This document shows, piece after piece, positions 12,639-15,220 of a stretch of DNA of 64,000 bases. Each line of letters opens with the position of its first letter. Position 1 is the stretch's first letter. The position numbers were made by a program, and so were the translations under genes. The notes under the pieces are model-generated. The model did no database searches and was not told the DNA's origin. It was given only the letters and a program-made list of their open reading frames with translations. The DNA lies in assembly GCF_001654455.1 (NCBI RefSeq), contig NZ_CP015772.1, positions 4,650,001 through 4,714,000 on the forward strand. Reading direction: 5' to 3'. The DNA is from Niabella ginsenosidivorans (GTDB taxonomy: Bacteria; Bacteroidota; Bacteroidia; Chitinophagales; Chitinophagaceae).

Positions 12639-13844
12639 ATGTCAGTACCAATAAACCATAGATTGCAACATCGAATTTTTGAAGTAGATGGATTGAAAGG
12701 ATTAGCCATTTTTGCCATCCTCATCTATCATTTTGTTACGCAATTTAACCTGCAGGTAGTTCCAGACGTATCGGCCCCTGCTCTTTTAAAGTCGGATGCA
12801 TGGGTTGCCAAAATTTCATCGTCTTTATTGTTTGGTAAAATTTATCCAGTTTTTTCCCTGCTTTTTGGGTTTACTTTCTTTTTACAAACAAAAAGGCAAA
12901 AAGAAAAGGGTACTTATACTACGCAAAAAGCAATCCGAAGAGCCTGTCTGCTTTTTGCATTCGGCGCTTTAAACAGTTTATTTTTTCCTGATGGGGATAT
13001 ACTGGTTATGTATGCAATTATGGGGTTATTACTGATCCCTTTAAGCCGGTTAAGCACCCGTGCACTGGCTATAATTGCCGTTATATTATTTTTACAGCCT
13101 TTCCAGTTGTACTACATTTTCAAAACTGCTGCAGATCCTCATTATGTATTTCCCCCTGTTTATTCAGATGTTCTGAAGAAGGAAATTATTACCACCTTAC
13201 AGGAAGGGTCACTGGGGAAAATCTTACTTACCAATATCACCAAAGGCCCGCTGGCAAGCATGGTATGGTCTTTTGAAAGCGGAAGGCTTACACAAATGCC
13301 GGGAATGTTCCTTTGCGGCGTTATTGCAGGCAGAATGTCCGTCTTTGATACCACGAAATACAATAAAAAATTCTGGTTAAGTGTATTGTTCTTCTCTTTT
13401 TTATTGTTTTTTATTATCTATACGCAAAAACACTACTTTATAACGCGGGATTCAACAGAAGCGTTCAAAAACTGTGTTTCCCTTACCTTTTCCCTTTGGC
13501 TTAATTTATTCTTTTCATTCGGCCTGGTTGCTTTATTTATTATACTCTTTAATACTACGTTCCAAAAAACGCTTTTTCCTTTTACTTATCTGGGAAAGAT
13601 GAGTTTAACCAATTATATAGTACAGTCCATTATTGGATCCCTATTCTTTTTCCCATTCGGGCTCAACCTTGCCAGTAAAATAGGTGTTACCGGCAGTTTT
13701 TTATTAAGTATTCCTATTGGGTTATTCCTGATCATCTTTTCAAAATGCTGGCTGCAGAAGCATGCTCATGGGCCGCTTGAATACATATGGTCAAAGCTCA
13801 GCGCTATTCAAAACATAAAACTCAATTACACACATAAAAATTAA
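12639..13844 (+). CDS. DUF418-type polytopic membrane protein
   Basis: A 401-residue inner-membrane protein with roughly ten hydrophobic helices. The opening EVDGLKGLAIFAILIYHFV matches the DUF418/acyltransferase-3-like start RxxxLDxLRGxAxxGIL. The pattern SLLFGKIYPVFSLLFGFTFFLQ followed by RRACLLFAFGALN is characteristic of DUF418. A C-terminal domain has LGKMSLTNYIVQSIIGSLFF, also a family hallmark. The function of DUF418 is not established. The next gene starts 8 bp after the stop, so the two are almost certainly co-transcribed and may act together at the envelope. Confidence 0.85.
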   Translation: MSVPINHRLQHRIFEVDGLKGLAIFAILIYHFVTQFNLQVVPDVSAPALLKSDAWVAKISSSLLFGKIYPVFSLLFGFTFFLQTKRQKEKGTYTTQKAIRRACLLFAFGALNSLFFPDGDILVMYAIMGLLLIPLSRLSTRALAIIAVILFLQPFQLYYIFKTAADPHYVFPPVYSDVLKKEIITTLQEGSLGKILLTNITKGPLASMVWSFESGRLTQMPGMFLCGVIAGRMSVFDTTKYNKKFWLSVLFFSFLLFFIIYTQKHYFITRDSTEAFKNCVSLTFSLWLNLFFSFGLVALFIILFNTTFQKTLFPFTYLGKMSLTNYIVQSIIGSLFFFPFGLNLASKIGVTGSFLLSIPIGLFLIIFSKCWLQKHAHGPLEYIWSKLSAIQNIKLNYTHKN

Positions 13845-13852
13845 CGTCAATT

Positions 13853-15220
13853 ATGAAAAAAGTCCTACTACTTCTTCTTACCATTGCTCTTGCAAAAATA
13901 TCCTACAACCAGGATGTTGTTTATACGGTAAACAACTGGAACAGCACCCAGATAACTCAGTATACGGGGATTAACCCTTCTACCGGCACCTATACCGGCA
14001 GCACTACCAAATTCGGCGACGTTTCATCATCCGCTATGGGTATGAACACCGCCGGGTACCTTTATTATATTCCTGTAAGCACCAATACAGGCGACTTTGA
14101 AGTATATTCCACGGCAACCCCATCTGCCGGAAATCCCTATCCATCTGCTACAGAAGTACTTTCCGCGGATATGAATGGTTCATCTGACGAAGAGATTTAC
14201 TTCAGAAGGCTTGGCATAAGAGCAGACGGATGGGCCTACATGGTTTTATCAGGGGCCACCGGAAACATCTACATGGCACGTTTCAAGACCTATCCTGACG
14301 GATCAGCCAGTGATTTTGAAAACCTGGGAACGATTACTCTGGACGATGGCAGCGCAGGCAGCGAATTTAACAATGGGGATCTTGTTTTTGATGAAACCGG
14401 TAATATGTTCATAATGGTGAACCAGGACACTGGTGGCGGTACAACAAAACTTTATATGATCACTCCTGCCGCTCTTAATGCAGCAACAGGCCCTGCTTCT
14501 GTTACACAGGCAGCCTTTAAGTGGAACGTAAAAGATGCGGATGGCGACAATTTTGGCCAGGCAGTTACAGGCCTTGCCATGTCTTCAACAGGAGGTTTCT
14601 ATCTTTCCGCACAGGGCGGGGCAGGAAGCTCGGACGCAGGCCTGTTCTATCTTGATCCAACTACAGCTAATGCCACTACTAAAGAGGTAAACGTAACAAA
14701 GCTCATTTCTACAGAACCGGGCATGGCCGATGTTGCTACTAATTATTATGCTTCTACCATTCTGCCGGTTAGCTTTGGTTCCATAAGCGCAAGCATCACA
14801 GGCAATCAGTTACAGGTAAACTGGACAACAGAAACAGAAACCAACAATGACCATTTTGAAATATGGGTTTCTCAGGATGGGAAAACATTTGCAAAGGCAG
14901 GAGAAGTTGCCTCCAAAGCCTCTAACGGAACTTCAACGCAAAGCATTGCTTATTCCTATAGCACACCGGCTGGCAAAGCAGTTTCTTTACTGGGGCTTTC
15001 CATCTTTGCATTAGGCCTGATGACCCTGTTCTTTACCAAAAAGAACAAAGCGCTGCTGGTGTTCATTGCCTTTGCCGGGCTGGGGGTTACTTCCTGCAGT
15101 AAACATTCAGAACAAATAGACACAACCGGCAACGGTAAATTGTTTGTGAAAATTATTCAGGTAGACAAAGATGGCAAACAATCTTCCTCTAAAGTAGTTA
15201 CAGCTTACAAGGCTGACTAG
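13853..15220 (+). CDS. secreted propeller-like protein with C-terminal membrane segment and internal lipobox
   Basis: A 455-residue protein. It opens with a signal peptide (residues 1-20). Residues 20-300 are a Gly/Ser/Thr-rich repeat region reading like a beta-propeller (TKLYMITPAALNAATG, GLFYLDPTTANA). From about 303 comes an FN3/Ig-like module common in Bacteroidota surface proteins (LPVSFGSISASITGNQLQVN, NNDHFEIWVSQDGKTF). Then there is a hydrophobic helix (about 376-394), a short KKNK linker, and a second hydrophobic stretch ending GLGVTSC at Cys415, just like a lipoprotein signal. About 40 mature-looking residues follow (GKLFVKIIQVDKDGKQ). Adjacent to DUF418. Function unknown. Confidence 0.8.
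   Translation: MKKVLLLLLTIALAKISYNQDVVYTVNNWNSTQITQYTGINPSTGTYTGSTTKFGDVSSSAMGMNTAGYLYYIPVSTNTGDFEVYSTATPSAGNPYPSATEVLSADMNGSSDEEIYFRRLGIRADGWAYMVLSGATGNIYMARFKTYPDGSASDFENLGTITLDDGSAGSEFNNGDLVFDETGNMFIMVNQDTGGGTTKLYMITPAALNAATGPASVTQAAFKWNVKDADGDNFGQAVTGLAMSSTGGFYLSAQGGAGSSDAGLFYLDPTTANATTKEVNVTKLISTEPGMADVATNYYASTILPVSFGSISASITGNQLQVNWTTETETNNDHFEIWVSQDGKTFAKAGEVASKASNGTSTQSIAYSYSTPAGKAVSLLGLSIFALGLMTLFFTKKNKALLVFIAFAGLGVTSCSKHSEQIDTTGNGKLFVKIIQVDKDGKQSSSKVVTAYKAD

Follow-up and report, generated by a model that had tools for sequence, protein, structure and literature searches.

How can a protein carry, close to its end, what looks like the beginning of a lipoprotein? The question is raised by an open reading frame at 13853-15220 in a stretch of 64,000 nucleotides from the genome of Niabella ginsenosidivorans, a member of the Chitinophagaceae; this stretch was analysed as a whole and is called the window here. 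Read from the plus strand, it encodes 455 amino acids followed by a stop codon. The protein consists of a signal peptide, an all-β N-terminal domain, an FN3-like region, a hydrophobic stretch, the tetrapeptide KKNK and a second hydrophobic stretch that ends in GLGVTSC, the cysteine of which is residue 415 and is followed by a tail of 40 residues (Table 1). The original prediction had described the signal peptide, the FN3-like region, the order of the two hydrophobic segments, KKNK and Cys415, and a tail of about 40 residues, all of which agree with the sequence. The region behind the signal peptide had been called propeller-like. The strands of the full-length model make it all-β, and many of the Foldseek matches of this model are proteins that we take to be propellers; however, since the TM-scores to the whole model do not exceed 0.36, a propeller is only likely. 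The signal peptide itself appears in the model as a helix at residues 2-11, with low confidence.

Table 1. Features of the gene for the 455-residue protein and its upstream neighbour (positions in the window)
Feature	Position	Strand	Residues and remarks
DUF418/acyltransferase-3-like polytopic membrane protein	12639..13844	+	401 aa, directly upstream; Pfam DUF418 5.3e-34
N-terminal signal peptide, without lipobox	13853..13912	+	1-20, from sequence; predicted cleavage site
All-β N-terminal domain, perhaps a propeller	13913..14752	+	21-300; strands in full-length model
FN3-like domain, first part (strands A-E)	14762..14968	+	304-372
Hydrophobic helix 1	14969..15028	+	373-392
Positive loop KKNK	15038..15049	+	396-399
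Hydrophobic segment 2, lipoprotein-signal-like h-region, lipobox VTS	15050..15094	+	400-414
Cys415, predicted lipidation and cleavage site	15095..15097	+	
FN3-like domain, second part (strands F-G)	15140..15211	+	430-453

What is the tail behind the cysteine? It had been described as hydrophilic, and the description can now be refined: it forms the last two strands, F and G, of the FN3 domain that begins before the hydrophobic hairpin. The first indication comes from relatives. A profile of the C-terminal module, which corresponds to the last 152 residues of the 455-residue protein, matches proteins outside the genus as two adjoining pieces, about 1-70 and 125-150, which are separated by 2-13 amino acids in 33 of 37 proteins as against 54-68 profile positions. 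The tail, YIRIAQVDKDG..YSKVV, is therefore the counterpart of YYRLKQVDxDG..YSxVV in uninterrupted modules, and the FN3 loop ahead of it has received the hairpin with its cysteine as an insertion. In an AlphaFold2 model (81 modules), strands within residues 4-69 are followed by helices at 70-91 and 96-106 and by strands at 126-135, 140-142 and 146-150; the mean pLDDT is 96 at residues 131-140 and 92 at 141-150, and falls below 50 at 111-122, the hairpin region having low confidence in both the module and the full-length models. A Foldseek comparison of the module model with the PDB gave no match below E 0.001, and Pfam fn3 gave none with the 455-residue protein at E ≤ 1. FN3 structures can be aligned over about 85-100 residues with Z of about 9-10 (88-99 residues and Z 9.2-9.7 for 2ibb, 4n68, 3mpc_A and the like), in alignments that run from residue 1 to residue 152 of the model and cover 90-110 residues of the chain; VIA-align gave Z 9.2 over 88 residues of 3mpc_A (96 long) and Z 9.4 over 91 residues of 4n68 (99 long). 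The model thus has the β sandwich of about 90 residues and the strand order of FN3. A single FN3-like domain spans both sides of the hairpin, and the hairpin with its lipobox sits in the E-F loop.

The arrangement is not peculiar to this protein. The genome of N. ginsenosidivorans (one contig, 5.63 Mb) encodes five more proteins that have only their last 150-200 residues or so in common with it, at 35-42% identity, and a profile search finds the same six places and none besides at E ≤ 10. The N-terminal parts of the five others differ, with NHL repeats, Laminin_G_3 or DUF285 in three of them and no Pfam match at E ≤ 0.01 in the other two. All six copies have the order of a hydrophobic helix, a K/R-containing loop, a second helix and a cysteine, with the cysteine invariant and the helices variable. 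In contigs of relatives, a search with the single protein gave no match, and a profile search was used instead, which yielded 76 loci. At E ≤ 0.001, the profile matches 14 of 16 other Niabella genomes, with 2-62 matches per genome, and has no match in the remaining two (G008 and G016); in G009, which is a single contig, all 12 matches listed span helix 1 to the tail. Counts were made on two samples, both taken from the best-scoring matches and hence biased to complete modules. The first has 82 distinct Niabella modules, one of which (L086, with a stop shortly after the cysteine) was dropped for the counts at other positions to leave 81; the second has 97 distinct modules found in named records, including two in metagenome-assembled genomes (MAGs) of Ferruginibacter. 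The samples share 36 modules and comprise 143 distinct ones.

The original prediction had proposed to look for conservation of this order among homologues, and had named homologues lacking the second segment as evidence against a designed arrangement. The order is conserved, with the cysteine present in all six copies of the genome, in 82/82 modules of the first sample and in 96/97 of the second, or 142 of the 143 distinct modules. Homologues without the second segment do occur, but all of those found belong to other genera; they lack the hairpin altogether, and a type IX tail usually follows. Their absence from the Niabella sample has to be read with the fact that it was composed of top-scoring, and hence complete, matches.

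Some arrangements of module genes were also noted. In G005 (L070:3698-9506), two proteins of 207 amino acids have nothing in front of the module but a signal peptide and a short stretch, and sit between proteins that by eye have YadA-head-like repeats and an S74-like end, for which they are perhaps the anchor subunits; pairs of similarly short module reading frames are also seen in L043, L051 and L083. In N. ginsengisoli (G002, L057:2362-11413), a tandem array of six module genes has N-terminal parts of unequal length, and five of its six modules are, by eye, nearly identical.

Is the cysteine in the context of a lipoprotein signal? Among the 81 modules, the residue in front of it is S in 45, G in 28 and A in 8, and the second residue behind it is K in 76 and R in 5, so that C-x-[KR] is present in every one. 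In 81/81, the eight-residue stretch of the interhelical loop that is richest in K/R contains two or more of these residues and is free of D/E. The second sample includes the sole module without the cysteine (L178:5431-5898) and three more in which R, T or C directly precedes it. The module alignments show that the cysteine is kept while the helices diverge. For comparison, a position profile was made from 68 N-terminal lipoprotein-like signals picked by rule from the window, the collected loci, 400 kb of the same genome and a further 400 kb from three other Niabella genomes, and these reference signals were scored by leaving one out; 38 other cysteines in a hydrophobic context, selected with the same rule for the preceding residue, served as controls. 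The median score is 11.7 for the internal sites (n = 81), 11.1 for the N-terminal signals (n = 68, leave-one-out) and -0.2 for the controls (n = 38). The site of Cys415 scores 11.8, in line with the earlier remark that this region looks just like the start of a lipoprotein. The 10th percentile of the reference is reached by 74 of the 81 internal sites and missed by 7, and 7 of the 38 controls reach it too. A first profile, built on 18 N-terminal signals, was set aside because of its small size; only 2/81 internal sites passed with it, though they still scored above the controls. Cys415 is thus preceded by a positive n-region, a hydrophobic h-region and an [SGA]C lipobox, as in lipoproteins; the signal of a lipoprotein also lies at the N-terminus of the precursor, whereas Cys415 lies at position 415 of 455. 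By a crude rule, a lipobox at the N-terminus is rare in the module proteins: 58 have a signal without a lipobox and one has a doubtful lipobox, the remainder being without a clear signal (18) or cut by the end of the locus (11).

What occupies this place in the relatives? Modules outside the genus in which the FN3 domain is ordinary, that is, uninterrupted, are followed by the tail that serves in type IX secretion (T9SS): PF18962 (Por_Secre_tail) in 34/36 and TIGR04183 in 35/36. Neither of these C-terminal sorting domains is found in the 455-residue protein. At E ≤ 0.001, PF18962 is missing from its genome and from 14 of the 16 other genomes of the genus (15/17 altogether), and is present in 42/42 other relatives searched. 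SprA_N (PF14349) is found in none of the 17 Niabella genomes, three of which are under 90% complete, in 19/19 other genera of the family and in 21/23 further genomes of the order. Within the family, 324/344 genomes have it, and the 20 that do not are the eight sampled from the genus and 12 others, 10 of which are under 90% complete. A protein of G035 has an N-terminal domain homologous to that of the 455-residue protein (29% over 293 amino acids), followed by an ordinary FN3 domain and a T9SS tail. On the two markers searched, Niabella thus appears to have lost T9SS and to employ the hairpin module in the position of the sorting tail, in a causal relation and an order that we infer.

A few genomes deserve separate mention. 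G002 and G010 have one Por_Secre_tail match each though they are without SprA_N, and these may be relics. G008 and G016 have neither the module nor the T9SS markers searched for. Two genomes of the family outside Niabella, G154 (100% complete) and G240 (92%), are without SprA_N, possibly through independent losses of T9SS, and have no hairpin module at E ≤ 1e-18.

Versions of the module outside Niabella are of two kinds. The fused hairpin occurs as a single copy each in G318 and G277, both of which keep SprA, and in G413, and also in three MAGs (two labelled Ferruginibacter and one Chitinophagaceae), which have ordinary modules as well. In the other kind, found in five genomes, the domain is split between two genes. 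The first encodes an exported protein and stops after strand E; the second, beginning with an ATG 26, 27 and 3 bases further on in one genus (G024, G267 and G146) and 64 and 100 bases further on in another (G189 and G114), encodes 64, 63, 57, 52 and 51 residues, respectively, comprising a lipoprotein-type signal, the cysteine and strands F-G. Here the lipoprotein signal does lie at the N-terminus of its precursor. The first gene belongs to no firm family in the genus of G024, G267 and G146, G8 being just over the cut-off in G146, and is esterase-like, by weak NCBIfam matches, in that of G189 and G114. Since such gene pairs exist, two chains can be the normal state of this FN3 domain. Apparent split genes inside Niabella (L310, L312 on the plus strand, and L313-L316) were rejected, because these short frames have no lipoprotein start of their own and look like remnants of broken fused copies.

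Did the hairpin arise more than once? A quick tree was made on the FN3 columns without the insert, which are few and leave most forks open. In it, the copies of G318 and G413 and those of both Ferruginibacter MAGs join Niabella in one starred branch, L228 of G277 falls among ordinary modules despite its hairpin, and the split pairs stand apart. AU tests did not reject a single clade, with p 0.708 for all hairpin copies and 0.915 for hairpin and split copies together, and the trees constrained to one clade had the higher likelihood. In a search of 395 genomes across the phylum, no hairpin module was found outside the family at E ≤ 1e-5, with 13 candidates per genome scored; G752 gave one tail-only match in this search. 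Nearly full-length profile matches (about 1e-9) in G377 and G376 turned out to lack the hairpin; these modules are ordinary and are followed by a type IX-like tail.

The gene at 13853 had also been said to be paired, after 8 bp, with a DUF418 membrane gene, and the spacing is confirmed (Table 1). Does this pair amount to the two-gene envelope system that had been suggested? Close homologues of the N-terminal part (E ≤ 1e-20 among Niabella loci) occur in seven genomes, and a DUF418 homologue adjoins in six of them (the present genome, G001, G002, G003, G004 and G012), the exception being the G014 locus, where none was found. The DUF418 frame is broken in the assembly in G002, G003 and G012, as is that of its neighbour in G003. 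No further DUF418 match was present among the module loci collected at that point. DUF418 is therefore a conserved partner of the close homologues of the 455-residue protein and not part of the module, so that the suggestion holds locally and not for the module at large.

How might such a module work? We infer from its anatomy the following scheme, which we consider probable: the module is a C-terminal membrane anchor in which the hairpin of the E-F loop is lipidated and cut at Cys415, and strands F-G are held by strand complementation. The N-terminal signal peptide would export the protein until helix 1 stops transfer; the K/R loop would remain inside, and helix 2 would lead the chain back out, acting as a type II (lipoprotein) signal peptide. 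Lgt and Lsp, the general enzymes of the established lipoprotein pathway, would attach the lipid to Cys415 and cleave the chain just ahead of it. This would yield a small lipoprotein with strands F-G, which would remain part of the FN3 sheet of the large fragment; strand complementation would thus tie the ectodomain to a lipid anchor, the module taking the place that the type IX sorting tail has in relatives. The fate of the large fragment is the weakest step of this scheme. Because it would keep helix 1 and the cut helix 2, a location in the outer membrane or at the surface needs a further step, for which no motif was seen; the fragment may either stay in the inner membrane beside its lipoprotein or be freed by a further cut. 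For Capnocytophaga, the available text of PMC5080379 defines the Bacteroidota surface-export signal (LES) as C-X-K-(D/E)2. This signal is only half present in the modules, because the third residue after the cysteine is D/E in 2/81; D/E is found at the fourth in 35/81 and at the sixth in 35/81.

The original prediction had left two readings side by side: either two genes had fused, or a larger protein is deliberately built so that its C-terminal part can be cut and lipidated. The design reading gains support because the arrangement is conserved across paralogues, species and varied N-terminal parts and scores like a lipoprotein, with cutting and lipidation themselves staying predictions. Fusion may be how the module originated, as free-standing mini-lipoproteins homologous to its F-G tail exist in other genera, but a chance fusion whose joint has no function is hardly credible in the face of six copies in one genome, matches in 14/16 other genomes of the genus and a nearly invariant cysteine. 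The same free-standing gene invites the thought that Niabella, too, makes the C-terminal lipoprotein separately, from a start codon in helix 1 or the loop, and an in-frame ATG indeed lies 25 codons before the cysteine in the 455-residue protein. Such a start, which had been named as a refuting observation, is not general: in the interval of 14-33 residues ahead of the cysteine, a Met codon is lacking in 25/81 modules, and any ATG, GTG or TTG in 8/81, making internal initiation improbable in our view.

A simpler possibility is that the hairpin is only an inner-membrane anchor, around the two helices of which the FN3 domain closes, with no cut and no lipid. In the model, the strands that flank the hairpin do close into one FN3 domain within a single chain, and a helical hairpin would presumably suffice for anchoring. 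We nevertheless think it unlikely, since it needs no cysteine, yet the cysteine is kept in nearly every module while the helices diverge; the site scores like lipoprotein signals; and the split version has the lipoprotein part and no hairpin. Helix 1 and the K/R loop might instead be a signal of the sortase-like kind (exosortase, rhombosortase or CPBP-type), cut ahead of helix 1, with the lipoprotein-like part left behind or serving the enzyme. They resemble LPXTG/PEP-CTERM signals, and among ten sequences scanned with the LPXTG_anchor model, two scored 15.5 and 15.2 bits, the cut-off being 15.9. MYXO-CTERM provides a precedent for C-terminal sorting that depends on a cysteine (available text of PMC11980579). 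However, alignments of 49 or 81 modules show no conserved motif in the interval from strand E to helix 1, the cysteine comes after the helices, and the F-G strands behind it are conserved and complete the FN3 fold; there is thus little to be said for a sortase-like signal.

How does the proposed lipid anchor compare with known systems? With proteins bearing the T9SS type A sorting domain (PF18962/TIGR04183), it shares the FN3-like module near the C-terminus of exported Chitinophagaceae proteins; it differs in lacking the sorting tail and in the interruption of the FN3 domain by a hairpin and lipobox. Ordinary Bacteroidota lipoproteins likewise have a K/R region, a hydrophobic stretch, [SGA]C and frequently C-x-K, and the scores have the same distribution, but in the 455-residue protein this signal is situated about 395 residues from the N-terminus, behind another helix, in a chain that already has an export signal. 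In the split FN3 pairs (G024, G267, G146, G189 and G114), F-G behind a lipobox cysteine would complete an exported C-terminal FN3 domain in the same way, though from two chains from the start and with no helix 1 or inside loop. As far as the available text of PMC11980579 goes, MYXO-CTERM is found in dozens of proteins per genome, as a C-terminal anchor that depends on an invariant cysteine, in the order of cysteine, single C-terminal helix and Arg-rich cytoplasmic end, and is cut by a CPBP protease. The Niabella anchor is likewise C-terminal with a near-invariant cysteine, but its order is reversed (helix, K/R, helix, cysteine) and the rest of a folded domain follows, so that it is not of the MYXO-CTERM type.

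The nearest entry is NCBIfam NF058595, a "lipo-invert putative C-terminal anchoring domain", compared here by its model name and matches only. The stretch from helix 1 through K/R and helix 2 to the cysteine aligns with it in some modules, at profile positions up to 6-73 of 113. It matches 16/81 modules at E ≤ 0.01 and 22/49 at E ≤ 0.1, with best E values of 8.1e-5 and 9.3e-5, respectively, and 0/36 ordinary modules at E ≤ 0.1; the best score among the matches listed is 22.7 bits, the cut-off being 37. The module of the 455-residue protein is not matched even at E ≤ 10. In five of the six matches for which a range is listed, the alignment ends directly behind the cysteine, and the F-G tail is hardly covered. 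The matches are below the cut-off. As a model name, an inverted lipoprotein-like anchor has thus been proposed before. The present analysis adds the insertion in an FN3 domain, a link with the absence of T9SS markers, the existence of split gene pairs and a reading in terms of strand complementation. The portions of the literature retrieved by our searches, which included the term "internal lipobox", do not describe such a membrane-anchoring architecture, and those on Niabella with T9SS or lipoproteins amount to few papers.

A more general formulation, to which we give an even chance, is that a folded β sandwich is completed by its own last two strands, turned into a tiny lipoprotein, and that this replaces the type IX tail genus-wide. 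The F-G lipoprotein would come from a cut in the precursor in Niabella and from a neighbouring gene in other genera, anchor and ectodomain being different chains in either case. If true, lipoprotein processing would act in the middle of an exported protein and leave a two-chain domain behind, and a lipid anchor of this kind, completed by strand complementation, might be used for display. One would then also see how FN3-bearing exported proteins are kept in large numbers by a Bacteroidota genus without SprA.
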